The notes beneath the pieces are model-generated. The model did not search any database. It was not told where the DNA came from and saw nothing but the letters and a program-made list of their open reading frames with translations. From contig JABJJN010000003.1 of the NCBI GenBank assembly GCA_018660835.1, positions 62,001 to 126,000 of the forward strand: a stretch of 64,000 bases of DNA, read 5' to 3'. The DNA is from Gemmatimonadota bacterium (GTDB taxonomy: Bacteria; Latescibacterota; UBA2968; UBA8231). Positions 28,977 through 46,014 of this stretch are shown here, in pieces (the stretch's first letter is position 1; each line of letters starts with the position of its first letter). Both the position numbers and the translations under genes were made by a program.

Positions 28977-29018
28977 GCCCACCCGATTGCGGAAATACGC
29001 GTCGGTGCTATATACGTG

Positions 29019-29046: not shown

Positions 29047-29079
29047 CAAATGCATCACATCAAGAATCGGAGAAACCAG

Positions 29080-30018: not shown

Positions 30019-31097
30019 GCGAGCCCGAGGTCAGTCCACGCCTGTCCACCCTCGATCGCTACCTGACACTCTGGATCTTTCTCGCTATGGGAGCAGGGAT
30101 TGGCCTGGGCTTGTGGGCACCAGGTCTGGTGGACTCGCTCACGAGTTTTCACGTGGGCACGACGTCGGTCCCCATTGCTCTGGGACTGATTCTGATGATG
30201 TATCCACCGCTGGCGAAGGTGAAATACGAGCAACTGCCACGGGTCTTCGCCAACACACGAGTCCTTGGATTGTCGCTGCTGCAGAATTGGTTGATTGGTC
30301 CCGTTCTGATGTTTCTCCTGGCGATCCTGTTTCTCCGCGATCAACCCGAATACATGGTGGGTCTGATCATGATTGGTCTCGCCCGCTGTATCGCCATGGT
30401 TATCGTATGGAATGAACTGGCCCGCGGTGACAGCGAGTATGCAGCCGCCCTCGTCGCTTTCAACTCGATCTTTCAGATCCTCTTCTATTCGGCCTATGCG
30501 TGGTTCTTCTTAACGATCCTGCCACCTCTGTTCGGGCTCCAGGGCATCGTCGTCGATGTGACCATGGGACAGATTGCCGAAAGCGTTCTCATCTACCTTG
30601 GAATCCCCTTCTTTGGCGGGATGCTGACGCGGTTCCTGCTGTTGCGTAGATACACACTTGTTTGGTATGAGCAGGTCTTCATCCCGCGGATCAGCCCGAT
30701 CACCCTCGTGGCATTGCTATTCACCATCGTCGTCATGTTCTGTTTCCAGGGGGAGCGCATCGTCGCCCTACCTCTGGATGTATTGCGCATTGCCCTGCCA
30801 TTGCTGATCTACTTCGTGTTGATGTTTCTCGTGTCCTTCTGGATGGGACACCGGATCGGTGCCGACTACGCGCAGACAGCAACGCTGTCCTTCACGGCGG
30901 CGAGCAACAATTTCGAACTCGCCATCGCCGTGGCAGTCGCCGTCTTCGGCATCGGCTCGGGTGCAGCCCTGGCCGCTGTCATCGGCCCCCTCGTAGAAGT
31001 ACCTGTCCTGATTGGCCTGGTGCATGTTTCCTTGTGGCTCAGGACACGCATGTTCGGACCCCGATCAAGACCCTCCACCATCCCGGCGAGTGTATAG
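30015..31097 (+). CDS. acr3: Arsenite efflux transporter, ACR3 family
   Basis: Inner-membrane As(III) exporter of 360 residues with about ten membrane segments. Family features include [18 protein letters not shown] near the N-terminus, [33 protein letters not shown] with the conserved transport cysteine, and [19 protein letters not shown] near the C-terminus. It overlaps arsM by four bases (ATGA) and is followed directly by arsR. It belongs to ACR3 rather than the ArsB family. Confidence 0.94.
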
Positions 31098-31487
31098 ATG
31101 GCGACGACCGATGTGGAAATCTTCAAGGCCTGCGCCGATGAGACGCGCTTACGGATCCTCGTATTGCTTGGCGAAGGTCAACTGTGCGTCTGCGACATCG
31201 TCGATGTCCTCGACATGCCCCAGGGCAAGGTCTCGCGTCATCTGGCCGTTTTGCGGCGTGCCGGACTCGTCGACGACGAACGACGTGGGACGTGGATCCA
31301 CTATTCTCTGAGCGCTGCCAGCTCCCCCTTAATGCAACGCCTGCATGCGTACACAAAGACGGAGGCCCGCCAGAGCGACACTGCACGGGGAGATCTTGAT
31401 CGCCTGCAGGAGTTATGCGCCTGTGGTGAAGTTTGTCTCGGCGAACGCGAGACTGCCGCACAGCCGGCCGCGATCGCCGCCACATGA
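31098..31487 (+). CDS. arsR: ArsR-family arsenic-responsive repressor
   Basis: Winged-helix metalloregulator of 129 residues. It starts directly after the acr3 stop. Cys30 and Cys32 in LCVCDIV form the classical arsenite-sensing motif at the DNA-recognition helix, followed by GKVSRHLAVLRRAGLV and a wing (RRGTWIHYSL). A C-terminal LCACGEVC motif adds more cysteines. It probably represses the operon through the palindrome at 29026-29045. Confidence 0.94.
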   Translation: MATTDVEIFKACADETRLRILVLLGEGQLCVCDIVDVLDMPQGKVSRHLAVLRRAGLVDDERRGTWIHYSLSAASSPLMQRLHAYTKTEARQSDTARGDLDRLQELCACGEVCLGERETAAQPAAIAAT

Positions 31488-31915
31488 ACCCCCTGAAAGT
31501 GTTGTTTCTCTGCACGGGGAACTCGTGTAGAAGTCAGATGGCAGAAGGCTGGGCTCGTCATCTGAAGAGCGAGCAGATCGAGGCATTTTCAGCCGGTATT
31601 GCGACCCACGGACTCAATCCACACGCCGTGGCCGTCATGGCCCAGGTCGGTGTTGACATCTCGTGTCAACGATCGCAGCACATTGACGAATTCTCTGACG
31701 TCGAGTTGGACATCGTCGTCACCGTCTGTGATCGTGCTGCTGAGAGTTGCCCGATCTTCCCGGGGGCGACGCGGGTCGTCCATCGCGCCTTCGATGACCC
31801 ACCACGTCTGGCCGCAGAGGCCGCGACCGAGGCAGAAGGTCTGGTGTTCTATCGACGTGTCCGCGACGAGATCAGATCATTCGTGGAATCCCTGCCCGAG
31901 GCGATCCTGCCGTAG
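31484..31915 (+). CDS. arsC: Arsenate reductase, thioredoxin-coupled type
   Basis: Reduces As(V) to As(III), 143 residues from ATG 31484, overlapping the arsR stop (ATGA). The low-molecular-weight phosphatase loop CTGNSCRS carries Cys10. Cys82 and Cys89 (TVCDRAAESC) are at the same positions as the redox pair of the well-studied Staphylococcus plasmid pI258 enzyme. It converges with the fhs gene, with six bases between the stops and no visible terminator. Confidence 0.94.
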   Translation: MNPLKVLFLCTGNSCRSQMAEGWARHLKSEQIEAFSAGIATHGLNPHAVAVMAQVGVDISCQRSQHIDEFSDVELDIVVTVCDRAAESCPIFPGATRVVHRAFDDPPRLAAEAATEAEGLVFYRRVRDEIRSFVESLPEAILP

Positions 31916-31921
31916 TTCAGA

Positions 31922-33640
31922 TCAGCTCAGTCCGGACAGCTCTCCGTGTTCATCGATGTCGATCCCCATGAACGCCGGCACAGAAGGGAGTCCGGGCATC
32001 GTCATGATGTCACCACACAGCGCATACAGGAAACCAGCTCCCGCCGACAGACGCACATCCCGTACTGGCACTGTAAAGCCAGTCGGTGCCCCCTTGAGGG
32101 TGGGATCATGAGAGAGTGATGCCGGGGTCTTGGCCATGATCACTGGCAGCTTGCCGAATCCGAGTCGACGATATTCATCCATCCTGTCCCGTGCGAGATC
32201 TGTGAACTCGACGCCATCGGCGCCATACACCTGCGTCGCCAGGGTCTTCATCTTTTCTTCAATCGGGGCATCCAACTCGTACAGATAGCCGAAGTTGTTG
32301 TCCGCGGCGCATGCTTCCACCACGGCCTCTGCCAGGTCCGAACCACCTTGTCCACCATGCGCCCACACGTCGGAGATCGCCACATCACGAGCCCCGGCTT
32401 CGATGGCGGCCTCCTTTACGAAATCGATCTCTGCATCCGTGTCCTCAGGAAAACGGTTGATCGCCACAACGGCAGGCACCCCAAAGCGACCAACGATCCC
32501 AAGATGCGCCGCAAGATTCGCCATCCCCGCTTGCAGGAAAGGCATCTGTTCGTCTACCGGAGGTCGCTTACTGCGGCGCGTCGGTAAGCCACCATGTTCT
32601 TTGAGTGCCTTCACCGTGGCGACGATGACGGCGCAATCTGGTTGTAGTCCGGACGTCCGGCATTTGATGTGAACGAATTTCTCGAAGCCACAATCAGAGC
32701 CAAAGCCAGCTTCCGTGACCAGATATCCATCGCCGAGGAGATTCAGGGCAATACGATCAGCGATAACAGAGCTGTTGCCGTGAGCGATGTTGGCGAAGGG
32801 CCCGGCGTGAACCAGCACGGGTGTGCCTTCCAGTGTCTGCATCAGCGTTGGCATGATCGCATCGCGCAACAGGGCCGCCATGGCGCCGGCCACACCCAGA
32901 TCTTCAGCCGTCACGGGCTGGTCGCTGCGATTGAAACCAACAACGATGCGTCCGAGACGCTCGCGTAGATCGGCTCGACCTGTCGTCAAGGCAAGAATCG
33001 CCATCACTTCTGAAGCGGCGGTGATGTCATAGCCAGACGAACGTTCGGTCTCGTCTTGCGCCAGGGTGATACTGCGTAAGGCTCGATCATTGATGTCGAC
33101 GACCCGACGAAAGGTCACCTGCTCCGGATCGATATCGAGTCGACGCAGACCTGCACGCTCGAGTCGTGCGTCGCTCAGGCGTGCTTCATGATACAGTCTC
33201 GAGTCGACAGCAGCGGCGAGCAGATTGTGGGCGGCACTGACGGCGTGAATGTCACCCGTCAGATGCAGATTCAGATCGACCATGGGCACGACCTGCGCGT
33301 ATCCCCCCCCTGCAGCGCCACCTTTCAGGCCGAAGGTTGGTCCTTGTGAGGGTTGGCGCAGGGCAGCGACGGAAGGATGCCCGAGCGTAGCGATCGCCTG
33401 CGCAAGTCCGACGGTGGTCACCGTCTTGCCCTCGCCCTGTTTGGTTGGCGTCATCGCTGTGACGATGACATAGCGCGGCGTTCCGGGCTTTGCATCCCGC
33501 TTGAGAACATCCAGATGCACCTTGGCCTTGTGGCGGCCATAGAGGTCGAGGTCATCCTCGGCCAGGCCGATGTCGGCAGCAACATCGACAATAGGGCGCA
33601 GAACGGCGGCGTTGGCGATCTCCAGATCAGTCTTCGCCAT
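31922..33640 (-). CDS. fhs: Formate-tetrahydrofolate ligase
   Basis: Cytoplasmic enzyme interconverting formate, THF and ATP with 10-formyl-THF, ADP and phosphate. From ATG 33640 it has 572 residues, close to the usual 556-580. The ATP loop TPTKQGEGKTV, GLKGGAAGGGYAQV, HAGPFANIAHGNSS and the C-terminal MTMPGLPSVP are all present. It is the last gene of the leftward corrinoid/C1 operon. In this setting it could run in either direction: releasing formate with ATP gain, or supplying C1 units. The intermediate enzyme FolD is not encoded in the window. Confidence 0.95.
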   Translation of the reverse strand: MAKTDLEIANAAVLRPIVDVAADIGLAEDDLDLYGRHKAKVHLDVLKRDAKPGTPRYVIVTAMTPTKQGEGKTVTTVGLAQAIATLGHPSVAALRQPSQGPTFGLKGGAAGGGYAQVVPMVDLNLHLTGDIHAVSAAHNLLAAAVDSRLYHEARLSDARLERAGLRRLDIDPEQVTFRRVVDINDRALRSITLAQDETERSSGYDITAASEVMAILALTTGRADLRERLGRIVVGFNRSDQPVTAEDLGVAGAMAALLRDAIMPTLMQTLEGTPVLVHAGPFANIAHGNSSVIADRIALNLLGDGYLVTEAGFGSDCGFEKFVHIKCRTSGLQPDCAVIVATVKALKEHGGLPTRRSKRPPVDEQMPFLQAGMANLAAHLGIVGRFGVPAVVAINRFPEDTDAEIDFVKEAAIEAGARDVAISDVWAHGGQGGSDLAEAVVEACAADNNFGYLYELDAPIEEKMKTLATQVYGADGVEFTDLARDRMDEYRRLGFGKLPVIMAKTPASLSHDPTLKGAPTGFTVPVRDVRLSAGAGFLYALCGDIMTMPGLPSVPAFMGIDIDEHGELSGLS

Positions 33641-33653
33641 CAGGTCTTCACCA

Positions 33654-34826
33654 TCAGACAAGCACCGGTGCTTTGACGAGGGCGGGATTGATGGGAAGAT
33701 CTCCCCAGGCTTCTACCATATCGCTAATGCGCTCCAGTCGGGAAATGAGGGCATCGGGCATCACATTGTCGGCGACGCCCAGAATGAAGGCGTCCCCAGG
33801 CGCGATCGTTGTGAAAACCCCGGCCATGTATTGCTCGAAATCTGCTTCCGAGAACGTTGGCTCGAGGATCACTGATGGGATGCCCCCCCAGATGATGACA
33901 TTGCTACCCCAGGCGTCGCGCGCCTGTTGAAGCGTACACGAAACCTGCGGTTCGGTTGTAAAGGTCTCCGCCATATCAAATCCGGCATCGCGCATGTGGC
34001 CGAGAATCAAGCGCGAGTCGTTGTCAGCATGAGTGCACAGCGTCTTGCCACAATGGTGCAGTTGCGCCGACAGATCCTGGTAGTACGGTGTGATGTAGCG
34101 TTCGAACAGGGGTGGTGGCGTCAGATTTGAGTCAAAATGCAATCCGTGCAACAACAGGCGAGCAGGCGAGGAAACCAGAAGGGGCCAGACACGTTCACGC
34201 TCGATCTCCTCCATGCGTCGCAGATGTGCTTCGACCTTTTCAGGACAGTCGGCGAGCAGATAGAAGGCATTCTGGTAACCGGCCTGTTTCTGCAGGAAAT
34301 GGTGGAATGGCACATCCCCGACCTGAACAAGAGGATAACCGTCGTCGCCGATCTGTGCCTCATAGGCTAGATACTCGTCGTATGTCGCCTCATACGACTG
34401 GTTTTCGATCAGATAGGCGACAACATCAATGTCCGCGGGCTCTTTGATCATGTGTTCAACCTCAAGAGCCTGAATCCCGGCGTCTGCCAGCACACTCGAA
34501 CTGCGTTGGCGGGTCGTCACGGTACCGACTGGCGTGCGAGTTTCAGTGAGGACAGAATCCCCCTGCTGATGTTCACGAATCTCTACGTCACCACCCTGAT
34601 GGGTACGGAAGACGTGCCCATCGCGCGCCGGCGTCCCCATACACAGTTGCTTTTCGAGTTCGCGTAGCGTGAGACCTGCGTAGCGCTCGGGCATGGTACC
34701 GCGATTGACTTGCGCCGTGTACCACAGCAGCAAACGCGGGATCCAGGGGACTCGATCAGGGCGCTGGTGATCCATGACCGCCAGCAAGCGCTGACGATGA
34801 GTCATCGTCGTCATCATATTCTGCAT
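33654..34826 (-). CDS. URO-D-family methyltransferase-like protein (paralogue of 42813-43994)
   Basis: This 390-residue protein of the uroporphyrinogen decarboxylase superfamily includes MtaA-type cobalamin methyltransferases. The N-terminal THRQRLLAVMDHQRPDRVPW and C-terminal WGGIPSVIL and ILGVADNVMPDA mark the subfamily. A possible metal site is HCGKTLCTHADND. No haem-pathway genes surround it, so a decarboxylase role is unlikely. It lies between the AcsE-MetF-MetV fusion and fhs, which suggests methyl transfer to or from the corrinoid protein. Several clustered ATGs make the exact start uncertain. The third URO-D gene at 42813 shares its motifs. Confidence 0.82.
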   Translation of the reverse strand: MQNMMTTMTHRQRLLAVMDHQRPDRVPWIPRLLLWYTAQVNRGTMPERYAGLTLRELEKQLCMGTPARDGHVFRTHQGGDVEIREHQQGDSVLTETRTPVGTVTTRQRSSSVLADAGIQALEVEHMIKEPADIDVVAYLIENQSYEATYDEYLAYEAQIGDDGYPLVQVGDVPFHHFLQKQAGYQNAFYLLADCPEKVEAHLRRMEEIERERVWPLLVSSPARLLLHGLHFDSNLTPPPLFERYITPYYQDLSAQLHHCGKTLCTHADNDSRLILGHMRDAGFDMAETFTTEPQVSCTLQQARDAWGSNVIIWGGIPSVILEPTFSEADFEQYMAGVFTTIAPGDAFILGVADNVMPDALISRLERISDMVEAWGDLPINPALVKAPVLV

Positions 34827-34901
34827 CACGACTGTGGTGTTCCGTCCGGCATCGGTCAGATTCCCTTCCTCACCCCGACGTCATTGGCGAGGGGGCAGGC
34901 C

Positions 34902-37508
34902 CTAGCGAGGTGGCATGGCTTCAACGGGAGGCAACCCTAGATCCAGTGGCTGCGGGCAAAGGCCTTCGATTTCATTGCGCCATGACGACGTATGTACAAG
35001 CGTGGGATCCTTGGGTGGCTGCAGCGAGAACAGAGCCTCCACACGATCCGTTGCGAGAGTTGCCTCCATTACCCGCCCCCAATAGCAGCGGCGCTCCGGG
35101 ATCACTTCGCAACCTCCCTGCAAGTCTGCGCCGGCGCAGGGCCCATTCAGGAGTCGCTTGGCGCAACCGGCGGTCGGTTCGGGACACAGATAGGCCAGAT
35201 CGGGGATGCGGCAGTCTCCGCACATTTCGCAACCGAGTTTGGAACTCTTTGTCCCCTGCTCAAAGAGTGTCGCCCAGCGCTGACGCCGGCCCTCTGGATC
35301 ACCACCAACCATCCATCGCAGTGCACCATTGAGTCCTTTGCCCTGCTCGAAATAACGTGCGTGCAGCGCCTGCATCTGTGGATCAACGGGTTCGTAGTCA
35401 GAACGATCCCCACGAACGAGGGGCCCATCGCTGCGCAGCAGACCATCGTCCTGATGTTCGAAGAGATAGAAGGGATCTGCCGTCGGCGCCATTTGCATGG
35501 GGCGGGAACCGTCAGCGTCTCGATACTCTTCCCATGACTCAAGCCAGTCGCGCCCGGACAGACTTGCCAATTCGTCCCGTACGGCACGAGCGTCATCCAA
35601 CTTCGTGATGCCCGCCAAATCAATACCGCGAAACGAAAGTCCCTCCAACAGAATGTGACTGAGCAAGGCCGCTCGGCGCACGGCCTGTCGATGCTGGTGC
35701 TCGGCGAGTTCACTGAAGTTCATCTTACGCAACGCGCGCAACTCTTCCCGTGCCCCAAGCTTGCCCTGGTACTTCTTTTTTAACTCATCGGGAACGACTG
35801 CACCCGCCACGTGCACACGATTCAGAACGCGCAGGAACTGTGGTGTCAGGAAGTAGACCATAGGGAACACAGGCATGTCCTGAATTCCCGCGCGTGTCAT
35901 CCACAGCTTCAATTCCTGAAACTTTGCCACGTCGTAGCCGAGTTGCGTGATGAGGTAATCGGCGCCGGCGCCGCGCTTCTTCCACACCTTCATATACTGG
36001 CCCCAGGTATCGGCTTCGGAGTATTTGAAGGGAGAGACGGCGGAGCCAATGCGCAGATCTTCGAGGGCACCCCCTGCACGTGGCAACAGATCAGGAAACT
36101 CGAGACCGCGACGCAGTGTATCGAGTGCCATGGCCAGATTGACAGCATCCAGATCGAAGATCGGCTTGCCACCTGTCGTATAGTCGCCGGTGACTGCGAA
36201 GAAGTGATGCAGACCCTGGTGGTAGAGAGCCAGGGCGCGGCGGATCAACGCATTCCGATCATCACTCTTGCAGGACAGGTTCACGATCGGCTGACGACCA
36301 CTGAGTCGCGCAATCTCAAGGGCCAGTGTGTCCGGACCGGGTGTGCGCTGACCTCCTGGTGTATCGGTGATGGTGAAGACGTAATCTTCGTCCCGCGCCT
36401 CTTCAGCAACTGCGAGGATCTGATCGAGGCCGCCTTCGGAGGGTGCCAGTTCGAGGATGAACACGGGGTCACCCTGCGGATCCTGCAATGCCCGGCCGAA
36501 GGGATCATCGAATTCCTGCACACGTTTGGGTGCCGCTGGTGCGCGTCGCTGTGACTGGGCGTAGTCAACGAGCAGCGTCAGCGCATCGACGGATGCACCT
36601 GAGCCCGCCGCAGCCCCGGCATCCGTGCCAGTGGCGATCGTACGGATCAACTTGAGAATTCGCCCATCCACCAGATCAGCCCCCGAGATCTGGCCAACAT
36701 CACAGATCGCCGCATCAACACCATATTCCATCGCGACACGTAGATAGGCGCGATTGATGGCGAGTCGACGTGGCAGGCCATCGGAACAATTCGACAGACC
36801 GAGCACGACATGGGCACCGGCCATCGCATCGTCCTCGCGGATCATGCGAATGCCCTCGAAGGTTCGCTTCGTATACCCCACCATGTCGGCGCCAAGAGGA
36901 CCTACGGTGGGATCGAAATACACTTCATTCGCCGCAATGCCTGCCTCGCGAGCGGCGACAAAGATCTGCCGTGCCGTTTCATGGTAGACGTCAGCATCGG
37001 CGATATCCGTAAACCCCGTTGCTGCCTCATCGCCCGCTTTCTCCAGCAGCATGCCCACCACGGCGAAAGGGAACTCCCGACGTAGTTGAAGTGCTTCGAG
37101 CCGATTGACTGTGACAGAGTTTACGAGCGGGACACGGGGGTTGGGGTCATCGGTGTGATCGTGATAGTGACGCAGGCCATATTCGAGCATCGATGGATCC
37201 GAAGAATCGATGCAGGGCGGTACGCCACCCCCCAGCAGGACGATGAGTTCGATGATGTGCGCCAGGACCTGCTGCGCGCCATCGTGACCAATCCCCTCGA
37301 TGGTGAAAAAGTCGTCCACGTTGACATCGAGAAAGCTGGCGCCAGAAGCAACCTGTTCAGTGACCAGTTTCCGCAGATGCCGATCACCAGCGAGGCGATC
37401 GATCCCATCCCCTGTCAACCAGCGCTGCGCCGATGTGCGCACACCGGGGATGTGACAGTGGAGACTCTCTGCAATGCGGATGAGCGATGGGTCGGCGGGC
37501 GAGCTCAT
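34902..37508 (-). CDS. AcsE-like / MetF / MetV-like triple fusion protein
   Basis: This 868-residue protein starts at ATG 37508 (GGAAGAG upstream). Residues about 1-290 resemble the pterin-binding methyl-THF:corrinoid methyltransferase AcsE/MeTr (FLDVNVDD, PPCIDSSDP, VPLVNSVTV, EVYFDPTVGPLG, GLSNCSDGLP). Residues about 345-640 are a MetF methylene-THF reductase (FILELAPSEGG, TDTPGGQRTPG, FFAVTGDY, ITQLGYD). Residues about 750-830 match the MetV-type C-terminus, with eight cysteines at 760, 763, 766, 775, 782, 791, 800 and 808. In acetogens these are separate proteins (AcsE and MetVF). The fusion would take a methyl group from corrinoid to THF and oxidise it to methylene-THF. The electron acceptor is unknown. 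Confidence 0.88.
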   Translation of the reverse strand: MSSPADPSLIRIAESLHCHIPGVRTSAQRWLTGDGIDRLAGDRHLRKLVTEQVASGASFLDVNVDDFFTIEGIGHDGAQQVLAHIIELIVLLGGGVPPCIDSSDPSMLEYGLRHYHDHTDDPNPRVPLVNSVTVNRLEALQLRREFPFAVVGMLLEKAGDEAATGFTDIADADVYHETARQIFVAAREAGIAANEVYFDPTVGPLGADMVGYTKRTFEGIRMIREDDAMAGAHVVLGLSNCSDGLPRRLAINRAYLRVAMEYGVDAAICDVGQISGADLVDGRILKLIRTIATGTDAGAAAGSGASVDALTLLVDYAQSQRRAPAAPKRVQEFDDPFGRALQDPQGDPVFILELAPSEGGLDQILAVAEEARDEDYVFTITDTPGGQRTPGPDTLALEIARLSGRQPIVNLSCKSDDRNALIRRALALYHQGLHHFFAVTGDYTTGGKPIFDLDAVNLAMALDTLRRGLEFPDLLPRAGGALEDLRIGSAVSPFKYSEADTWGQYMKVWKKRGAGADYLITQLGYDVAKFQELKLWMTRAGIQDMPVFPMVYFLTPQFLRVLNRVHVAGAVVPDELKKKYQGKLGAREELRALRKMNFSELAEHQHRQAVRRAALLSHILLEGLSFRGIDLAGITKLDDARAVRDELASLSGRDWLESWEEYRDADGSRPMQMAPTADPFYLFEHQDDGLLRSDGPLVRGDRSDYEPVDPQMQALHARYFEQGKGLNGALRWMVGGDPEGRRQRWATLFEQGTKSSKLGCEMCGDCRIPDLAYLCPEPTAGCAKRLLNGPCAGADLQGGCEVIPERRCYWGRVMEATLATDRVEALFSLQPPKDPTLVHTSSWRNEIEGLCPQPLDLGLPPVEAMPPR

Positions 37509-37527
37509 CGATTTATCTCTTCCTGGT

Positions 37528-38289
37528 CTAGGAGGTGGACATGGTGTGCATGGGTTCGATCTGGATGATGCCTTCGTCGTAGCTGGGGACGACCGTTGCA
37601 CCGGGCTCGACGATGAGGTAGTCCTGTTCGGGCCATGGACCGTCGAGCCAGCGCTGAAACAGCGTGAGATCGCCCTCTATTTCCTGATACTCCCAGCCAC
37701 GATCAGCGCAGATCTTCATAGCGGTCTGTTTGACTGGCAGGTGGCGTGAGAAGTCGAAATCGATGAAAACACCCCGTTTGTAGTGAGCGGTCCATCCCTC
37801 CATCACTTCGATCAGATAGCGGGCATTCTCCTCGCCGTATTGTTCGACGAGCTTGTCGTACTCCATCTGCGTACCCAGTCCGGCGCCTTGTTTGCGCTCC
37901 GGACGCTCACCACCTCGCTCGCGATGCTCAAGCCAACCGGTTGTGAAATAGTAGGTACCCGGATTGTCGAGAAAGAACTCTGAGTAACGCTCCTTGGACC
38001 CCAGAAAAAATGTGATGCAATCATGGGCACGAGGGATGATCAGTTGCGTATCAGCTGGTGCACGCAAGCCGTTGAGCATGTTGTTACACAACCCATACCC
38101 CACGAGGATCGCGTCGTACTTACCGGGCTCGATTGCATCGAGGCTCTCCTGAATCCGATCGATCCCAACCAGGGGATTGTCATGATACCCCTGGCTGAGA
38201 TACTCGAAATCGAACAGATTCGGCGATCGAGCTGCACAATGGCAGATCTCGCGGAAGGAGACCTCGCAAGCGAGGATTTTCAGAAACAC
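37528..38289 (-). CDS. DUF1638-family protein
   Basis: This 253-residue cytoplasmic protein carries the DUF1638 hallmarks: ILACEV at the N-terminus, GYGLCNNMLNGL, IIPRAHDCITFFLGSKERY and YYFTTGWLEH. The conserved Cys and His residues could bind a metal or cofactor. The family is typically found beside corrinoid proteins and methyltransferases. It lies two bases after the corrinoid gene here. Its role is unknown; helping reactivate or load the corrinoid is one guess. Confidence 0.85.
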   Translation of the reverse strand: MFLKILACEVSFREICHCAARSPNLFDFEYLSQGYHDNPLVGIDRIQESLDAIEPGKYDAILVGYGLCNNMLNGLRAPADTQLIIPRAHDCITFFLGSKERYSEFFLDNPGTYYFTTGWLEHRERGGERPERKQGAGLGTQMEYDKLVEQYGEENARYLIEVMEGWTAHYKRGVFIDFDFSRHLPVKQTAMKICADRGWEYQEIEGDLTLFQRWLDGPWPEQDYLIVEPGATVVPSYDEGIIQIEPMHTMSTS

Positions 38290-38291
38290 TC

Positions 38292-38936
38292 TTAGTTGCT
38301 CAGCTGGTCTATGAGCTCCCGTGCCTGGTCAGCTGCACTGGCTGCGTCGGCGGCATAGGCATCGGCCCCGATTTGGTCCGCATACGCCTGAGTGACGGGC
38401 GCGCCGCCCACCATCGTGCGCACATCATCGGTGATTCCCGCCTCCTTGATCGCTTCGACGGTGGCCTTCATAGATGGCATCGTCGTTGTCAGCAGAGCAG
38501 ACATGCACACAATCTGGACTCCCTGCTCACGAACAGACTCGAGAAAGCGCTCTGGTGGCACATCGATTCCCAGATCGACGATCTGGAAACCGGCGCCCTC
38601 GAGCATCATCGCCACGAGATTCTTGCCGATATCGTGCAGGTCACCCTTCACCGTGCCAATGGCGGCAATTCCGGCAGGTTCAACCTTCTCCTCGATGAGT
38701 TGTGGCCTGATAAGTTGCATTCCTGCCTTCATCGCTCGAGCGGCGATGAGCACCTCAGGGATGTAGAACTCGTTATTCTTGAACTTGGCACCGACAACAT
38801 TCATTCCGGCGATCAGACCCTCATGGAGGATTTCACGCACCGGAACTCCCTCGTCGAGAGCTTGTTGAACGCCCTCCTCGACCTCGGATGCCTGCCCCTT
38901 GATCAGGCTCTGAGCGACCTGCTGTAAGTCTGCCAT
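38292..38936 (-). CDS. Corrinoid (B12-binding) methyl-carrier protein
   Basis: This 214-residue protein of the MtaC/MtbC/MttC type shuttles a methyl group on cobalamin. An N-terminal helical cap (about 1-85, NNEFYIPEVLIAARAMKAGM) is followed by a B12-binding Rossmann domain with the DxHxxG motif GTVKGDLHDIGKN, in which the His is the lower cobalt ligand, plus MSALLTTTMPSM and VGGAPV. ATG 38936 is preferred; upstream in-frame sequence covers a predicted -24/-12 promoter (39025-39040). It is the central carrier of the operon. Confidence 0.94.
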   Translation of the reverse strand: MADLQQVAQSLIKGQASEVEEGVQQALDEGVPVREILHEGLIAGMNVVGAKFKNNEFYIPEVLIAARAMKAGMQLIRPQLIEEKVEPAGIAAIGTVKGDLHDIGKNLVAMMLEGAGFQIVDLGIDVPPERFLESVREQGVQIVCMSALLTTTMPSMKATVEAIKEAGITDDVRTMVGGAPVTQAYADQIGADAYAADAASAADQARELIDQLSN

Positions 38937-39024
38937 GATAATCCGTCTTCCATCGAATGAGATGAAGGGAAACCGCTTGGGAGTCGACGCCTCGATCTGA
39001 CAACCGAGCGCTCTGTTATGACTC

Positions 39025-39040
39025 TGCAATCCGGGTGCCA
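39025..39040 (-). promoter_or_regulatory. Predicted sigma-54 promoter of the corrinoid gene
   Basis: On the minus strand TGGCACCCGGATTGCA matches TGGCACG-N4-TTGCW with a single change (G7 to C) and exact spacing. Transcription would start near 39014, leaving a leader of about 78 bases before ATG 38936. Two palindromes lie about 74-126 bases upstream. Confidence 0.75.
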
Positions 39041-39087
39041 CGGTGGCAGCGACTGTGGGGACGCCTTATCTGGGGGATTCAGGCCGC

Positions 39088-39140
39088 TCATGGGACATGT
39101 TTGTCCCATGATCAGCACAGACCGGGACGACACCGTCCCG
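39088..39140. promoter_or_regulatory. Two palindromes at enhancer (UAS) distance from a sigma-54 promoter
   Basis: Palindrome 1 is a perfect 10-bp repeat (TCATGGGACA-TGTT-TGTCCCATGA, 39088-39111). Palindrome 2 is a perfect 7-bp repeat (CGGGACG-ACAC-CGTCCCG, 39123-39140). Both share the core GGGAC(A/G)-N4-(T/C)GTCCC. Their centres are 32 bp apart, about three helical turns. A further GGGACA half-site is at 39143-39148. Position and phasing suit tandem binding by an NtrC-type activator. RNA hairpins are an alternative reading. Confidence 0.65.
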
Positions 39141-39167
39141 ACGGGACACCAACGACACGGATCATTC

Positions 39168-40205
39168 TCACCCCAGTTCGAGACCTGCTGCGTAGAGGGC
39201 GACGACATTCTCGGGGGGACTCACAGACTGGATATTATGGCAGGGAGCCAGAATGTATCTGCCATTGGCCCCGAGAGTTCGCAGATTTTCACCAACCTCT
39301 GTCCGCACATCCTCCGGCGTACCGAAGGGCAAGGTCTGCTGATTGTCGACACCGCCGTGGAAGACAAGCTGGTCACCAAAATCCCTGCGCAACTGCTCGC
39401 GCTCCATACCCGGGCATCGCCACTGGATCGGATTCAGTACATCCATGCCCAGAGCGATCATGTCGGGCAGGACATCGCGTATGGCGCCATCAGAGTGAAA
39501 GAAGACGAAGGCCCCCGCCTCGTGCGCCAGATCCACCATGCGTTTCATCCGCGGCAACAGAAATCGGCGGATATGCTCGAGACTGAACATGAGACTCTCC
39601 TGACTACCCAGGTCTTCGGCGACGTAACTGATGTTGACCTGCCCCGGCAGCGACTCGTAGATCCGTGTTGAGTTCTCTCGAGCAAGATCGAACAGATGAT
39701 CGAGGCAATAGTCGACGATGTCTGGATGTTCGATCATATCGATGAAGGCTTGTTCCTGGCCACGCAGCTGTTTGTAGAGCAGGAATGGTTCGGACCCACC
39801 GCCACGGATGGGATACGCCTCCCACCCTCGAATCTGCCCGGGTAGTACGCTGTAGTCCCACCAGTCAGGGTGGGGCCAGTGATAGTTCGCCTCTATCTCT
39901 TCGACACTGTCGTAGGTGGCCAACGGATGATACACGGTCTCCGAGTAGACGCCGCCGCCATAGTCGACCAATTCTGCACGACAACCGTAGATGTCGTAAC
40001 CGATCTCAGGGGCGGGACCGACGTAGCGCGGTGTGACACTGAAGGGGCGATCGATACTCAATCTCTCCAGCATCTGCCGATCATCGCTGACGGCCAGATG
40101 GGCCTTCAATTTGTCTGTCGCTTCAGCAGTCGCCCAATAGTCCATGGGTATTCGGTCAGGCTTCTCTCCAGACAACACTGCAAGCCAACGTTCTTTGGGG
40201 GTCAT
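39168..40205 (-). CDS. URO-D-family methyltransferase-like protein (operon leader gene)
   Basis: This 345-residue protein starts at ATG 40205 with AGGAGAG seven bases upstream. It starts with the URO-D/MtaA pattern MTPKERWLAVLSGEKPDRIP. The C-terminal half has HSDGAIRDVLPDMIALGMDV, HGGVDNQQTLPFGTPEDV and ILAPCHNIQ, a probable metal site including His and Cys. It is more distant from the two other URO-D proteins here than they are from each other. As the first gene after a near-perfect sigma-54 promoter, and directly before the corrinoid gene, it is the best candidate for the substrate-specific methyltransferase. The methyl donor cannot be read from sequence. Confidence 0.85.
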   Translation of the reverse strand: MTPKERWLAVLSGEKPDRIPMDYWATAEATDKLKAHLAVSDDRQMLERLSIDRPFSVTPRYVGPAPEIGYDIYGCRAELVDYGGGVYSETVYHPLATYDSVEEIEANYHWPHPDWWDYSVLPGQIRGWEAYPIRGGGSEPFLLYKQLRGQEQAFIDMIEHPDIVDYCLDHLFDLARENSTRIYESLPGQVNISYVAEDLGSQESLMFSLEHIRRFLLPRMKRMVDLAHEAGAFVFFHSDGAIRDVLPDMIALGMDVLNPIQWRCPGMEREQLRRDFGDQLVFHGGVDNQQTLPFGTPEDVRTEVGENLRTLGANGRYILAPCHNIQSVSPPENVVALYAAGLELG

Positions 40206-40238
40206 CGGTGCTCTCCTCTTCGAGTCAGTCGCATGGGA

Positions 40239-40254
40239 TGCAACCACCGTGCCA
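40239..40254 (-). promoter_or_regulatory. Predicted sigma-54 promoter of the corrinoid/C1 operon
   Basis: On the minus strand TGGCACGGTGGTTGCA is a perfect match to TGGCACG-N4-TTGCW. Transcription is predicted near 40228, 23 bases before ATG 40205 of the first operon gene. The -24 box forms an inverted repeat with the -24 box of the divergent promoter at 40280. Confidence 0.85.
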
Positions 40255-40278
40255 CAGATGTTAGCTGCTTTGAATAGC

Positions 40279-40295
40279 TTGGCACGGAAGTTGTT
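40279..40295 (+). promoter_or_regulatory. Predicted divergent sigma-54 promoter of the MFS transporter gene
   Basis: TTGGCACGGAAGTTGTT has a perfect -24 box and a -12 box with one change (TTGT for TTGC), at the right spacing. Transcription would start near 40306. This leaves the purine-rich ribosome site at 40327-40343 in the leader and favours a GTG start at 40345 or 40351. Confidence 0.75.
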
Positions 40296-40344
40296 TGCTC
40301 AATGACGAATGACCGTGTGCAGTGGTGGAGGAAGAGGAAGGGAA

Positions 40345-41709
40345 GTGTCAGTGAAGCAGATCATCGAAGTTCCGACGTCGCGCTGGAGCGTCGTCGCCGG
40401 TGCCCTCATTGTCCAGGTGATCCTGGGCACCGTGTATGCATTCAGCATCTTTGTAAAACCCTTGGAAATTGAGTTTGGCTGGTCGCGCACTGCGACGCAG
40501 TGGGCCTTCTCACTGGCCTTGGCGACCTTCGCCGTAAGCATGATTCCAGCAGGTCGTCTGCAGGACCGCCTCGGCCCGCGTACCGTCGCCAGTATCGGTG
40601 GAGCCCTATTGGGTGCGTCCTTCCTATTGGGGGCGATCTTGCTTGCCTGGGTGCGACAGCCGTGGGCCCTGTATCTGACGTACGGCATATTGGGTGGCGC
40701 AGGAATCGGCTTTGCCTATGTGTGCCCCATCGCTGCCGCCGTGAAGTGGTTTCCCGACAAGAAGGGTCTCATCACGGGTCTCGCTGTCGCCGGATTCGGC
40801 GCCGGCGCCTTGTTCTTTGCCGGTCCTGCCTCGGTTCTGCTGCAACCTTCCGGAAGTGGCGACGAGGCGATCGGAATATCACAGATCTTGTTGGTCGGCC
40901 TGGGGATCAAGGCCGGCGGCGGCTTCGGCATCGGCTGGCAGACTTTCTTCCTTCTCCACGGGGTCGTCTGCGTCGTTGGCGTTTTGGTGGGGGCATCCCT
41001 GTTGCGAAATCCACCAGAGGGTTACTTGCCGCCAGGCTACACCCCCCCTCCTGGCTCTGGGAAGCGCGATCTCGCCTGGCGCGAAATGCTGGACACACCA
41101 CTGGCGTGCATGCTGTGGCTGACCTTCATCTTTGGCGCCACTTCTGGTCTGATGGCGATCGGTCAGTGGAAACCGATGATGAATACCCTCTTGCAGGGCC
41201 AGACCTTTGCACCTGAGTGGATGGGGTCCTTTGGCCGATTCGTTGAACCCGTCGGTATCCTCGCCGTATTCAATGCCCTGGGTCGAGTGTTCTGGGGTAA
41301 GGTCTCCGATATCATCGATCGTCCACGCGCCATGATGATCATGTTCCTGGCGCAGGGCATGGCCTTCATGGTTCTGGTAAGTGTGGAGAGTACCGTCGCC
41401 GTCTTCGTCGCGTCTGCCTGGGTCGGATTGAACTTTGGTGGCAACTTCGCCCTGTTTCCGTCGGCAACGGCAGACTACTTCGGCAGCAAGAATCTTGGCA
41501 TGAACTATGGCTGGATCTTCACCGCCTACGGCGTGGCAGGTATCCTTGGCCCCGTGGTAGGTGGCGTCCTGTTCGACGTAACCGACCAGTATATCCTGCC
41601 CTTCGTCTTCGCTGGCACGCTCTGCTTCATCGCTGCCGGATGCTCGGTTGCCGTCTGGGGTCTGGCACGAGCACGAAATCGTGAAGCGGCGGAAGGAACG
41701 ATCCAATGA
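40345..41709 (+). CDS. MFS transporter, oxalate/formate antiporter (OFA) family
   Basis: Inner-membrane carrier of about 454 residues with roughly twelve membrane segments. OFA-type features include RWSVVAGALIVQVILGTVYAFS, FGWSRTATQWAFSLAL, AGRLQDRLGPR, GGAGIGFAYVCPIAAAVKWF and PDKKGLITGLAVAGFGAGA. Characterised members move oxalate, formate or other small carboxylates. The start is ambiguous: GTG 40345 (chosen), GTG 40351, or ATG 40309, which would be almost leaderless from the predicted sigma-54 promoter. Expressed divergently from the C1 operon, it probably imports the substrate or exports a product such as formate or the demethylated acid. Confidence 0.88.
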   Translation: MSVKQIIEVPTSRWSVVAGALIVQVILGTVYAFSIFVKPLEIEFGWSRTATQWAFSLALATFAVSMIPAGRLQDRLGPRTVASIGGALLGASFLLGAILLAWVRQPWALYLTYGILGGAGIGFAYVCPIAAAVKWFPDKKGLITGLAVAGFGAGALFFAGPASVLLQPSGSGDEAIGISQILLVGLGIKAGGGFGIGWQTFFLLHGVVCVVGVLVGASLLRNPPEGYLPPGYTPPPGSGKRDLAWREMLDTPLACMLWLTFIFGATSGLMAIGQWKPMMNTLLQGQTFAPEWMGSFGRFVEPVGILAVFNALGRVFWGKVSDIIDRPRAMMIMFLAQGMAFMVLVSVESTVAVFVASAWVGLNFGGNFALFPSATADYFGSKNLGMNYGWIFTAYGVAGILGPVVGGVLFDVTDQYILPFVFAGTLCFIAAGCSVAVWGLARARNREAAEGTIQ

Positions 41710-42806
41710 CCCCTCGACTTGTGTCGCTGGCGCTGTTTCTGCTGTCCTTGGTGCCCGTGTCTGCTGCGCAGGACACGGAACTGGAGTGGTATGGATATCT
41801 GCGACTGGACATGGCCCATGACACGGCCCAATCCAGTCATGGCAACTACACTGTCTTCGTCCAACCTCATCCTGCGGGTGAAGCGACCTCAACGATGAGT
41901 GTCACGGCGCGGCAGTCGCGCCTCGGTGCGCACGCCACTCGGGGCACGATGACGGGGCGTCTCGAGGTCGACTTCTATGGTGTCAGCCCTGAAAACAAGA
42001 ACACCGTCATGCTCCGCTACGCCTACATGAGTGTCCCTGTTGGCGCATTCACATTGCGGGCGGGACAGACGATGGACATGATCTCCCCCCTCAATCCACT
42101 CACCGTCAACTACCCTGTCATCTGGGGAGCCGGTAACATCGGTTATCGCCGCCCCCAGATTCAGCTGTTTCGCCGCACCGAGGCCTATTTCGCTGGACTG
42201 GCCCTGACACGAAACATCACGGGCGATCTCGACGGCGACACCATCGTCGACGGTGATGCATCTGGTGTGCCGGCCATTCAGGGCCGCGTCGCTCTGCGAC
42301 CCGAATGGACCTTGCCGGGGCTCGAATTGGGTGTGTCCGGCCACTACGGCAAGTGCAACTGCCCGGCGAAGGATATCGACTACAACAATTGGTCTGTCTC
42401 CGGCGACCTGGCCTGGAAGAGCAGCCGCGTGAAGGTGCTCGCCGAAGTGTATCGGGGTTCGAATCTTGGAGCCTACGCTGGGACGATCTACAACAGCGAC
42501 AGGGTGAATGGTCTGCACAGCATGGGCGGCTGGGCGAATCTGCAAGTAGCCCTCGATGAGCTGACTCGAGTGTCCATCGGCGGTGGCAGGGACGATGTAG
42601 ATGAAGCCGACCTTGGTGCCGAGCAACAGGGCGTGCGAGAGCGCAATCAGGTGGCCTTCGCGGCAGTTCTTCGTCAGATCACACCAGAGGTGACGGTAGG
42701 ATTCGAGTTGTCTCATTGGGCGACGCGGTATTCAAATCCAGCACTCGGCAGCGAGGCAGAACCCACGGATCTGCGATTGCAGTGGTCGATTCAAGGGAAT
42801 TTCTAG
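41706..42806 (+). CDS. Outer-membrane porin (DcaP-like)
   Basis: This 366-residue outer-membrane barrel has a signal peptide (about 1-21, LVSLALFLLSLVPVSAAQ). The mature chain alternates beta-strands typical of trimeric porins (ELEWYGYLRLDMAHD, SRLGAHATRGTMTGRLEVDF, LRYAYMSVPVGAFTLRAGQ) and ends in an aromatic residue (QGNF), as is usual for barrels. The closest pattern is the DcaP-like group linked to small organic acids. It overlaps the MFS gene (ATGA), so channel and carrier are co-expressed. Confidence 0.85.
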   Translation: MTPRLVSLALFLLSLVPVSAAQDTELEWYGYLRLDMAHDTAQSSHGNYTVFVQPHPAGEATSTMSVTARQSRLGAHATRGTMTGRLEVDFYGVSPENKNTVMLRYAYMSVPVGAFTLRAGQTMDMISPLNPLTVNYPVIWGAGNIGYRRPQIQLFRRTEAYFAGLALTRNITGDLDGDTIVDGDASGVPAIQGRVALRPEWTLPGLELGVSGHYGKCNCPAKDIDYNNWSVSGDLAWKSSRVKVLAEVYRGSNLGAYAGTIYNSDRVNGLHSMGGWANLQVALDELTRVSIGGGRDDVDEADLGAEQQGVRERNQVAFAAVLRQITPEVTVGFELSHWATRYSNPALGSEAEPTDLRLQWSIQGNF

Positions 42807-42812
42807 AATTCT

Positions 42813-43994
42813 ATGACGACACATCATCAGCATCTGCTGGCTGCCATGCGTGGCCAGCAGGTAGACGGGGTACCGTGGGCACCACGCATGGATCTGTGGC
42901 AGATCGCGCTGCAGGCACGGGGCGCCTTACCGACTCGCTTTGCCGGGATGCACACGGCGGACATTGCCAGACAGCTGGATGTAGCCTGCCATGCCGTGCG
43001 CGGCGACTACACACTGACAAGGCCGAGCGAGGATGTGGTGCTGCGCGGCCTCGGCATCGACAACCATCCGGACTATCCGTATCGCGTCGAGATCGAGGGC
43101 CTGTCCATTGAGGCAGATGTGGCACCCGAGCACGTCCACACCGTCGTGCATACGTCAGCCGGTGATGTCACGACGCATCTGGAGCTGACGGCGCAGATGA
43201 AGGCGGAGGGGATCTCTCTGCCCTTTGTGCGTCAGTACCCGATCGAGACGGTTGCCGATCTTGAGCGCGTAGCTGAGGTATTCGAGCACTGTCGTGTCAT
43301 TCCTACGCCCGCTGCCTATGCACAGTTTCACCAGCGCATTGGTGAAGCAGGTGTCGCTGTCGCCTCCGGGCCCATCGCCGCCTCACCGATGCATCTGGTT
43401 CTGCATGATCTGATGGCGATGGACCGCTTCTTCTATCTCTACGCCGACGAACCGGAGGCATTGCGTTCCTTCGCCACACGCCTGGACCCATTCTATGATG
43501 CCTGTCTCGATGCAGTGGTTGCCAGTGCGGCTGAGGTCGTTTTCTGGGGGGCCAACTACGATCGTGATCTGACGTGGCCCCCCTTCCTCGAGCAGGAAAT
43601 CGCGCCATGGTTGCGGCGGGTCGCAGAGCGATTGCACGATGCGGGCAAGCTGCTGCTGACGCACTGTGACGGCGAGAACGACGGCATCGGCCATGTTTTC
43701 GCCGATTGCGGCGTCGACGTGGTGGAGTCCGTCTGCCCCACACCGATGACGAGTCTCGATCACCAGGCGCTGCGTACGGCCTTTGGCCCTGACGTCACGA
43801 TCTGGGGAGGCGTGCCGTCCGTCGCCTTGCTCGAAGCGTCCATGTCCCAACAGGACTTCTCCACCTATGTGGATGATCTGTGCGAACAGATCGGCGACGG
43901 TCATCGTTGGATCCTGGGTGTATCCGACAATGTGCCTCCCGACGCGGACATGGCACGACTCGAATACCTTCGCGAACGCTTCGCCGCATCCTAA
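42813..43994 (+). CDS. URO-D-family methyltransferase-like protein (paralogue of 33654-34826)
   Basis: This 393-residue protein shares its order of motifs with the gene at 33654: MTTHHQHLLAAMRGQQVDGVPW at the start, a mid-protein LTHCDGEND site (possible His/Cys metal ligands), then WGGVPSVALLEASMS and WILGVSDNVPPDADMARLE. It follows the porin gene by six bases, so it belongs to the divergent transport operon. A duplicated pair of URO-D proteins, one per operon, suggests either two methyl donors or two steps (substrate to corrinoid and corrinoid to acceptor). Confidence 0.82.
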   Translation: MTTHHQHLLAAMRGQQVDGVPWAPRMDLWQIALQARGALPTRFAGMHTADIARQLDVACHAVRGDYTLTRPSEDVVLRGLGIDNHPDYPYRVEIEGLSIEADVAPEHVHTVVHTSAGDVTTHLELTAQMKAEGISLPFVRQYPIETVADLERVAEVFEHCRVIPTPAAYAQFHQRIGEAGVAVASGPIAASPMHLVLHDLMAMDRFFYLYADEPEALRSFATRLDPFYDACLDAVVASAAEVVFWGANYDRDLTWPPFLEQEIAPWLRRVAERLHDAGKLLLTHCDGENDGIGHVFADCGVDVVESVCPTPMTSLDHQALRTAFGPDVTIWGGVPSVALLEASMSQQDFSTYVDDLCEQIGDGHRWILGVSDNVPPDADMARLEYLRERFAAS

Positions 43995-44074: not shown

Positions 44075-45028
44075 ATGAAGATCGTCGTCCTCGACGGCTA
44101 CGCGCTGAACCCTGGTGATCTCAACTGGGATGGACTTGCCGCTCTCGGCGATCTGACGGTACACGAACATTCGACGGCCGATCAGGTAGTCGAACGTGCC
44201 GCCGGCGCCGAAGTTCTGTTAACGAACAAGTGTCCTGTCGGGGCAGAGCAGATCTCAGCCCTGCCGGAACTGCGTTGTATTGGCGTCCTGGCGACGGGCT
44301 TCAACATCGTCGACGTCGAAGCGGCGCGAGCCCGAGACATTTCCGTCGTGAACGTACCGACGTACGGTACCGCCTCTGTCGCGCAGATGGTCTTCGCCCA
44401 CATCCTGCATCTCACGCAGAATGTGGGGCATCATGCCGCAACGGTAAGCGCAGGACGCTGGGCAGCCAATCGCGACTTTTGCTACTGGGATACTCCACAA
44501 GTTGAGTTGGAGAATCTTACGCTGGGTATCGTCGGCTTCGGTCGAATTGGTGGTCGCGTGGCCGAACTGGCCCGCGCCTTCGGCATGAACGTCATCGCTG
44601 CGACACGAGATGGGCGAGACCCGGATGCGGGCGATGTCCGTGCTGTGGAACTGGATGAATTGTTCCGCAGCAGCGACATCATCTCTCTTCACTGTCCGCT
44701 GACACCGGCGACAGAAGGCATCGTCAGTGCCGAACGCCTTGCACTGATGAAGTCAACGGCTTTCCTCATCAACACGAGTCGCGGTCCACTCGTCGACGAA
44801 GCGGCACTGTTGGCAGCTCTCAAGGACGAACGTATTGCCGGCGCGGGTCTGGATGTGCTCGCCGTGGAGCCGCCCAAAGAAGGTCACCCACTGTATGCCG
44901 CCAAGAATTGCTACATCACACCGCACATCGCCTGGGCCACGGGTGCCGCACGCTCCCGACTGTTGGCGACGGTCGTCGACAATGTGCGCGCCTACGCCGC
45001 AGGCGAAGCACAGAACGTGGTGAACTAG
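44075..45028 (+). CDS. D-2-hydroxyacid dehydrogenase (glycerate dehydrogenase-like)
   Basis: NAD(P)-dependent enzyme of 317 residues reducing a 2-oxoacid to a D-2-hydroxyacid, or the reverse. It has the dinucleotide site IVGFGRIGGRVAELARAFGM, HCPLTPATEG, the catalytic Arg in INTSRGPLVDE, a Glu in the EPPKEGHPL region and the catalytic His in ITPHIAWATGAAR. The FCYWDTPQVELENLTLGIVG stretch is typical of HprA/glycerate dehydrogenases, so hydroxypyruvate or glyoxylate is a reasonable substrate. An 80-base gap before it holds no clear promoter. Confidence 0.9.
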   Translation: MKIVVLDGYALNPGDLNWDGLAALGDLTVHEHSTADQVVERAAGAEVLLTNKCPVGAEQISALPELRCIGVLATGFNIVDVEAARARDISVVNVPTYGTASVAQMVFAHILHLTQNVGHHAATVSAGRWAANRDFCYWDTPQVELENLTLGIVGFGRIGGRVAELARAFGMNVIAATRDGRDPDAGDVRAVELDELFRSSDIISLHCPLTPATEGIVSAERLALMKSTAFLINTSRGPLVDEAALLAALKDERIAGAGLDVLAVEPPKEGHPLYAAKNCYITPHIAWATGAARSRLLATVVDNVRAYAAGEAQNVVN

Positions 45029-45051
45029 CATTTCGCTACCCGTCTCTTTGA

Positions 45052-46014
45052 GTGGAGTTTCCCTTGGGTAAACCTGTCGTATTCGTCTCCGAACCAATCA
45101 ACCCCCTCGGTCTGGAGATACTGTCCCCTCACTGTCATTGCATCGCACCCTGGCACGATGGCAGCGAGACAGGTGAAATCCCCGAGGCGGCAGAGGCGAT
45201 CATGGTGCGTACGTATTCTGTGACTGCAGAGCGCATGGAGGCAGCGTCCCGGCTGCGCGTCATAGCCAAGCATGGTGTCGGGATCGACAACATAGACGTC
45301 GCCAGTGCCACAGCGCGGCGCATCCCGGTACTATGGACACCAGAGGCCAATGCGGATGCCGTCGCCCAACACGCGCTGGCCCTGATGCTGGGTCTCGCGA
45401 ATCGTCTGGCAGGTGCAGACGAGGCGCTACGAGGGGGTCGTTTCCTTGAGCGACTGGATTTTGGCAGTGTGGAATTGACGGGCCGAGTACTTGGGATCAT
45501 CGGACTGGGCAGGATCGGCAGCCGCGTCGCGCGCCGCGCCCATTTGGGATTGGGAATGGAGATTCTCGCCTACGACCCTTTTATAGATGCCAGTGATGTT
45601 GCGACCCTCGTTGACGACCTGGGAGAATTGCTCTCACGAGCTGATGTTGTCACCCTCCATGTTCCCCTGACCGACGAGACCCGCGGCTTTATCAACGCCT
45701 CCGCCCTGGCTCACATGAAACCGACGGCCTTCCTCGTCAATACATCCCGCGGTCCCGTGATCGATGAAGAAGCGTTGGCACAGGCATTGACCGACGGTGG
45801 CCTCGCTGGCGCGGGCATCGATGTTTTTCGCAACGAGCCCCCGGCGCCAGATCATCCATTCCTCACGGCACCGCGGGTGATCCTGACGCCGCATGTGGCG
45901 GGTCTGTCGGACCAAGCTCTGGTGCGTGTCGCAACCGAAGCAGCTCAAGGTATTCTCGATGTCTTGCAGGGACGTCGACCTGCCAGCCCCGTCAATCCGG
46001 AGATTCTGCCATGA
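45052..46014 (+). CDS. D-2-hydroxyacid dehydrogenase (SerA-like)
   Basis: This 320-residue enzyme belongs to the same superfamily as its neighbour but to a different branch. It has HGVGIDNIDVASATARRIPV, the NAD site IIGLGRIGSRVARRAHLGLG, LHVPLTDETRGFI, catalytic Arg in VNTSRGPVIDEEAL and His in ILTPHVAGLSDQ. It looks like phosphoglycerate dehydrogenase without the regulatory ACT domain. The start may be GTG 45052 or TTG 45064. Two different hydroxyacid dehydrogenases in tandem point to catabolism of hydroxy- or oxo-acids. The stop overlaps the VOC gene (ATGA). Confidence 0.88.
   Translation: MEFPLGKPVVFVSEPINPLGLEILSPHCHCIAPWHDGSETGEIPEAAEAIMVRTYSVTAERMEAASRLRVIAKHGVGIDNIDVASATARRIPVLWTPEANADAVAQHALALMLGLANRLAGADEALRGGRFLERLDFGSVELTGRVLGIIGLGRIGSRVARRAHLGLGMEILAYDPFIDASDVATLVDDLGELLSRADVVTLHVPLTDETRGFINASALAHMKPTAFLVNTSRGPVIDEEALAQALTDGGLAGAGIDVFRNEPPAPDHPFLTAPRVILTPHVAGLSDQALVRVATEAAQGILDVLQGRRPASPVNPEILP

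Follow-up and report, generated by a model that had tools for sequence, protein, structure and literature searches.

The 64,000-nucleotide stretch of Latescibacterota DNA analysed here (hereafter the window) carries a gene cluster that probably encodes a sigma-54-controlled pathway, in which a methylated compound is demethylated by corrinoid chemistry and the methyl group is oxidised to formate. At its core is a minus-strand operon encoding two proteins of the URO-D superfamily, a corrinoid carrier, a DUF1638 protein, a fusion of AcsE, MetF and MetV, and the formate-tetrahydrofolate ligase Fhs. Divergent from it lie genes for an OFA-family transporter, a porin and a third URO-D protein. These are known parts joined in a new way, the fusion sharing one unit with Fhs and DUF1638. 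The host (G000) is a metagenome-assembled genome (MAG) of 7.09 Mb, 93% complete and 8% contaminated. The gene content of the cluster, its conservation and its promoters were computed, as were the lack of acetyl-CoA synthase (ACS) and the presence elsewhere in the genome of FolD and of other methionine and MTHFR genes.

A conserved operon built around a fusion protein

All nine genes named in an earlier, sequence-only reading of the window were borne out when its proteins were searched with Pfam and NCBIfam profiles. In minus-strand order, the operon comprises UroD1 (39168..40205; 71 bits), which is likely to be the methyl-donor (MT I) enzyme; the corrinoid carrier of 214 residues (38292..38936), with B12-binding_2 and B12-binding domains; the DUF1638 protein (37528..38289; 125 bits); the 868-residue fusion (34902..37508), with AcsE-type Pterin_bind, MTHFR and MetV/DUF5981 domains; UroD2 (33654..34805; PF01208, 39 bits); and Fhs (31922..33640; PF01268, 797 bits). 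Moving the starts of five genes inward (UroD1 to 40205, the carrier to 38936, the fusion to 37508, UroD2 to 34805 and Fhs to 33640) makes the apparent overlaps between them vanish, leaving a tight unit. The plus-strand genes encode an OFA-family MFS transporter of the monocarboxylate type (40309..41709; 378 bits with the SfMCT model NF049980, cut-off 320), a DcaP-type porin (41706..42806; 29 bits, cut-off 27) and UroD3 (42813..43994; 38 bits), which is probably co-transcribed with two D-2-hydroxyacid dehydrogenase genes (44075..46014, plus strand).

From these genes we infer the enzyme roles, the kind of substrate, the direction of flux and the electron partner. A methylated compound would enter through the porin and the OFA transporter, and UroD1 (with UroD2 and UroD3 perhaps handling other donors) would transfer the methyl group from it to the carrier in its Co(I) state. 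From there the AcsE domain would hand the methyl group to tetrahydrofolate (THF). Oxidation of methyl-THF to methylene-THF would fall to the fused MetF and MetV domains, for which an RnfC-like protein is the probable NAD(H) partner. FolD, whose gene lies outside the operon, would make 10-formyl-THF, and Fhs would release formate, conserving ATP. The DUF1638 protein and a RACo-type activase, acting in trans here and encoded in the operon of several relatives, would keep the cobalt reduced.

The sequence-only reading had proposed a search for the same gene order in other genomes. A scan of 84,980 species for relatives of the fusion found five loci encoding them, and G045 was added by searching 64 genomes from the phylum; the cluster recurs, whole or in part, in six further genomes of the window's family (G045, G054, G056, G057, G058 and G063). 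G053 has a fragment of the fusion (55% identity over 91 residues) that may represent a further copy. The order in the relatives is UroD1–carrier–UroD4–DUF1638–(RACo)–fusion–UroD2–Fhs–(UroD5), and identities to the window copy are 57–82% for most core enzymes, 56–74% for UroD1 in five relatives and 60–70% for UroD2. UroD1 (56%) lies elsewhere in G058, and in G054 Fhs is set apart in the opposite orientation. The relatives' clusters usually carry a RACo-type activase and a fourth URO-D gene (UroD4), neither of which is in the window copy. In G056 both the OFA transporter and the porin are encoded divergently from UroD1; G057 has the porin in this arrangement and G063 the beginning of an OFA gene. 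The transporter is 81% identical in G056 and 76% over 89 residues in G063, and the porin 49–50% in G056 and G057. UroD3 has no close counterpart in the relatives' clusters and is hence a weaker member. Within the one family the distribution of the cluster is patchy. Two of the loci, L009 and L013, come from public MAG contigs whose labels read Gemmatimonadaceae and Gemmatimonas phototrophica. These contigs match genomes (in the case of L013, G057) that the taxonomy of the genome collection places in the window's Latescibacterota family, and the labels are likely to be wrong.

Sigma-54 promoters

Control of the operon by sigma-54 is well supported by sequence. A perfect −24/−12 promoter, TGGCACGGTGGTTGCA (40239..40254, minus strand), lies 33 nt upstream of the UroD1 ATG, and a second, also perfect, TGGCACCCGGATTGCA (39025..39040, minus strand), lies 88 nt upstream of the carrier gene. 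These two sites, each preceding an operon gene, are the only exact matches to TGGCACN5TTGCW in the 64-kb window, where dinucleotide shuffles gave an expectation of 0.11 and no shuffle reached two. Sites matching 10–11 of 11 positions stand directly before UroD1 in G063, G054, G056 and G057, and matching sites precede the carrier in G058 and G045, so that a site is conserved in all seven clusters and the sigma-54 control claimed from the window alone is upheld. A divergent site considered for the OFA gene (TGGCACGGAAGTTGTTTGC) was ruled out because its spacing is wrong.

Genome-wide, G000 has 26 exact sites against 6 for a reversed control pattern, and, judged by eye, the frames that follow some of them look like an ammonium transporter, a flagellin and a small heat-shock protein. 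None of the 24 exact sites of G000 outside the operon is near a URO-D match, and sigma-54 sites are therefore not general to URO-D genes. A search for an activator beside the cluster found a PAS-sigma-54 activator about 2.3 kb beyond UroD5 in G063; an NtrC-type regulator at window positions 16514-17923 is too distant to assign to the cluster. The 442-residue frame that follows the porin in G056 and G057 was considered as a regulator and rejected, being by eye a glutamate dehydrogenase.

The URO-D proteins and a proposed corrinoid relay

Methyl-donor enzymes of the URO-D type are well established (PMC13222342, PMC8630106), and by analogy with MtvB, OdmB, VdmB, MtoB, CdmB and CmuA a URO-D protein acting as the substrate enzyme would not in itself be new. 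As in O-demethylase systems, a URO-D-superfamily gene is encoded with a corrinoid protein, an arrangement kept in the relatives, and the AcsE domain supplies a pterin-binding methyl-corrinoid:THF methyltransferase. This domain scores 102.6 bits with NF005719, under the full-length cut-off of 259, and in alignment with MeTr structures retains four pterin-site motifs (DS, NS, DP and LSN); the carrier has an intact base-off motif, DLHDIG, and also SALLTTTM. The new evidence supports the relay from URO-D protein through carrier to AcsE that the sequence-only reading had put forward. The fusion is the only AcsE-type THF methyltransferase (MT II) in G000, and its MTHFR domain is one of three such reductases there.

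The structural model of UroD1 is confident (pLDDT 87), and its closest fold is that of the methylcobalamin:CoM methyltransferase MtaA, followed by HemE. In an alignment of UroD1–3 with MtaA the His-Cys-Cys zinc ligands of the MtaA/CmuA family were not found: at these positions UroD1 has H251, D253 and H337, with a one-residue alignment doubt over C336, and UroD2 and UroD3 both have H-D-D (residue numbers of UroD1 and UroD2 follow the longer reading frames, not the corrected starts). The metal site of the superfamily is kept in an altered form, H-x-D. By the argument of PMC10418091, loss of both cysteines would favour an oxygen over a sulfur ligand, but because CdmB is active without zinc (PMC13222342) this is a hint only. 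CdmB was not among the matches in PDB searches with the URO-D proteins, and a profile search with UroD2 gave no solved relative.

The DUF1638 protein is probably a helper of corrinoid reductive activation, by analogy with Phaeobacter, in which DUF1638 and RamA-like proteins support a split methionine synthase (PMC5764234). Its cysteines C8, C16 and C18 are invariant. The structural model is poor (mean pLDDT 60) and gave no PDB match, so that no mechanism can be drawn from the fold.

Several points weigh against a demethylation pathway. With the MtaA/CmuA model TIGR01463 (cut-off 235.4 bits) UroD1 scores 50.8 and UroD2 21.7 bits, and UroD3 gives no match; these scores are so far under the cut-off that the chemistry of the three proteins is not assigned by family. 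Some UroD1 orthologues have no carrier gene nearby in the stretches examined, and orphan orthologues in other families are about 57–66% identical. The operon lacks a reductive activase (RACo) of its own, which the sequence-only reading had missed: the sole RACo of G000 sits on contig C101, and complete RACo-type activases lie inside the cluster of G045, G054 and G058. The usual direction of Fhs is from formate to 10-formyl-THF, and the 93% completeness and 8% contamination of the MAG weaken claims of absence.

The weak URO-D scores (38–71 bits), the great diversity of the family and the orphan UroD1 orthologues would also suit URO-D proteins that are not methyltransferases, perform some other chemistry (decarboxylation or a lyase reaction, for example) and merely share the operon. 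We consider this quite improbable, since across the family the genes for UroD1, UroD2 and Fhs are for the most part found together with those for the carrier and the fusion, UroD1, UroD2 and UroD3 give no match to the HemE model TIGR01464, and the carrier would otherwise be left without a methyl-donor enzyme. A separate gene on contig C84 scores 353.6 bits as URO-D, well above every other match in G000.

Probable fate of the methyl group and possible substrates

G000 has two FolD-type genes, and the fusion, FolD and Fhs together complete on paper the route from methyl-THF through methylene-THF and 10-formyl-THF to formate; this supports the dedicated oxidation branch proposed earlier, with the fusion and Fhs in the operon and FolD in the genome. 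Just past the cluster in G056 and G057 lies a gene for an RnfC-like protein with FMN, SLBB and 4Fe-4S domains, which has a 62% identical homologue in G000. The MetFV reductase of Acetobacterium has an RnfC-type subunit as its NAD(H) partner, and by analogy the RnfC-like protein may be the electron partner of the fusion. The acetyl-CoA synthase that would mark Wood-Ljungdahl acetogenesis (PF03598; CdhC/AcsB) has no match in the 93%-complete G000, in agreement with the sequence-only reading. That reading also saw no MttB, MtaB or MtrH gene, which is correct for the cluster; elsewhere in G000 an MttB-family methyltransferase is encoded beside URO-D genes on contig C61 (163102-164466; L048, L072), far from corrinoid protein genes.

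The same genes could in principle run in reverse, Fhs activating formate, the fusion reducing it to methyl-THF, and the carrier and URO-D proteins methylating an acceptor in a biosynthetic or electron-sink branch. Fhs, MetFV and AcsE do make up the Wood-Ljungdahl methyl branch, each step is reversible in principle, and MtaA, the nearest solved relative of UroD1, methylates a thiol. However, there is no ACS and no cluster copy has a homocysteine methyltransferase; a transporter and a porin encoded divergently point to a substrate that is imported, and the cysteine ligands usual in thiol methylators have given way to other residues, all of which makes the reverse direction unlikely.

A purely biosynthetic role such as methionine synthesis was what the sequence-only reading had named as contradicting demethylation. 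The cluster would then be a housekeeping module for C1 or methionine metabolism, the fusion and carrier serving as a formate-fed split methionine synthase. This would accord with the support that DUF1638 and RamA-like proteins give to the Phaeobacter enzyme (PMC5764234), and a related cluster on C101 does hold a homocysteine methyltransferase. We give the idea very little credence, as the methionine genes sit elsewhere: G000 has a 1243-residue MetH-type frame with Pterin_bind and B12-binding_2 domains on C92 and a bifunctional homocysteine methyltransferase/MTHFR on C78, homocysteine methyltransferase is absent from every copy of the present cluster that was read and is found in the separate C101-type cluster, and the two clusters coexist in G054. 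The patchy distribution and the sigma-54 promoter also better fit an accessory pathway, and methionine synthesis as the main role was rejected, so that the objection named in the sequence-only reading falls away. A MetV-MetF protein provides G000 with a second MTHFR outside the cluster.

The C101 locus itself (208300-213066; L051) encodes a UroD of the MtaA/CmuA family, a corrinoid protein, RACo and a homocysteine methyltransferase, and this UroD clears the MtaA/CmuA cut-off. Many relatives have the cluster as UroD–carrier–RACo–MetFV–AcsE–homocysteine methyltransferase; with MetFV and AcsE thus added, it has the appearance of a split methionine synthase accompanied by a methyl-donor enzyme. 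On contig C4 (236000-252000; L118, L164) a frame resembling the THF-dependent O-demethylases DesA and LigM (499.6 bits, against a syringate-model cut-off of 800) adjoins a MetV-MetF protein of reversed order, a second, cobalamin-free route to methyl-THF in G000.

Demethylation to formate by the operon has partial parallels in several known systems. The Mto, Mtv, Odm and Vdm systems of Methermicoccus, Archaeoglobus, Moorella and Acetobacterium likewise combine a URO-D MT I, a small corrinoid protein and a pterin-binding MT II, with a RACo-type activase and, in Mto, adjoining MFS transporters like the OFA protein here (PMC8630106, PMC8359953, PMC13222342). They differ from the present operon, which joins MT II with MetF and MetV in one protein, includes genes for Fhs and DUF1638, has a sigma-54 promoter and no activase, and has neither ACS nor methanogenesis downstream; the likeness of UroD1–3 to MtvB and MtoB is at the level of the superfamily and is not a clade placement. 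The chloromethane pathway (cmuA, cmuB, metF2, folD, purU) shares the transfer of a corrinoid-bound methyl group to THF and its passage through MetF and FolD to formate (PMC3621897), but CmuA fuses methyltransferase and corrinoid domains, UroD1–3 fall under the CmuA model cut-off, and PurU hydrolyses 10-formyl-THF where Fhs would conserve ATP. In the ligM-metF-ligH operon of Sphingobium SYK-6 an O-demethylase, MetF and 10-formyl-THF synthetase are encoded together, as here (PMC6888825), although LigM passes the methyl group straight to THF without cobalamin. Glycine betaine demethylation by MtgBCD in Ruegeria shares a carrier of the MtgC/MtbC kind, DUF1638 and a dedicated MetF2, with RamA (PMC12478193), but the donor enzyme is of the MttB type, the parts are scattered, and there is no fusion and no Fhs in the operon. 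The type 1 mlp clusters of Kountz and Balskus share URO-D proteins and a corrinoid protein, with a Ram activase; that class bars a THF methyltransferase gene within 20 kb and has His-Cys-Cys, whereas here the AcsE fusion is in the operon and the site reads H-x-D (PMC10418091). The C101 cluster is nearer to type 1 mlp than the present operon.

The OFA protein also passes an L-lactate transporter model. A small-acid substrate fits the OFA family and the nearby D-2-hydroxyacid dehydrogenases, yet the latter were not found with the cluster in the relatives. Judged by sequence, a methoxy-acid is a possible substrate, and the transporter could instead export formate. Near the cluster, at window positions 46492-49588 and 55637-57115, lie genes for a beta-helix protein, a GDSL esterase, an enolase-superfamily protein resembling gluconate and galactonate dehydratases and a SASA carbohydrate esterase, which suggest sugar-acid metabolism. 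On the other side (28975-31915) are arsenic-type genes, by eye an ArsM-like methyltransferase, an ACR3-like transporter, an ArsR-like regulator and an ArsC-like phosphatase; convergent with Fhs and ending 6 bases from its stop, they are probably adjacent by chance.

Of the 39 URO-D matches in G000, one is HemE, one lies at C101, three belong to the present cluster and 34 are others; against these stand only one AcsE-type MT II and two methyltransferase-type carriers. UroD1-like proteins (E ≤1e-20) occur in 7 of 8 family genomes with the fusion and 2 of 17 without it (Fisher p = 5e-4, with the G053 fragment counted as fusion-bearing and relatedness ignored), and the same-genus pair G000 and G059 has 12 and 0. 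Near other URO-D genes, in a hand-picked set scanned without a background rate, are genes for an alpha-L-fucosidase, a sulfatase, a heparinase/alginate-lyase-like protein, a GH141-type beta-helix protein and mandelate-racemase-family enzymes. These neighbours, and the single MT II against 34 extra URO-D proteins, motivate but do not prove the idea that the operon is a central hub, its one carrier and one fusion serving 34 scattered URO-D methyltransferases, each of which would act on its own O-methylated sugar or sugar acid freed by polysaccharide breakdown and remove methyl groups for conversion to formate; we offer this tentatively, as a rather doubtful extension. On contig C4 (132000-157500; L045, L046) about fifteen URO-D genes are densely packed with an alpha-L-fucosidase and a hydantoinase-A-like ASKHA protein.

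In the literature searched, Latescibacterota are not linked to such chemistry. If the proposed pathway is correct, members of an uncultured phylum without acetogenesis or methanogenesis would harvest methyl groups by corrinoid chemistry, making formate, and would do so with a THF methyltransferase and a methyl-THF oxidase fused in one protein. The operon would also place DUF1638, which still lacks an explained role in corrinoid metabolism, in a second setting, and would offer a small gene set for assigning substrates to the very large and mostly uncharacterised URO-D group.

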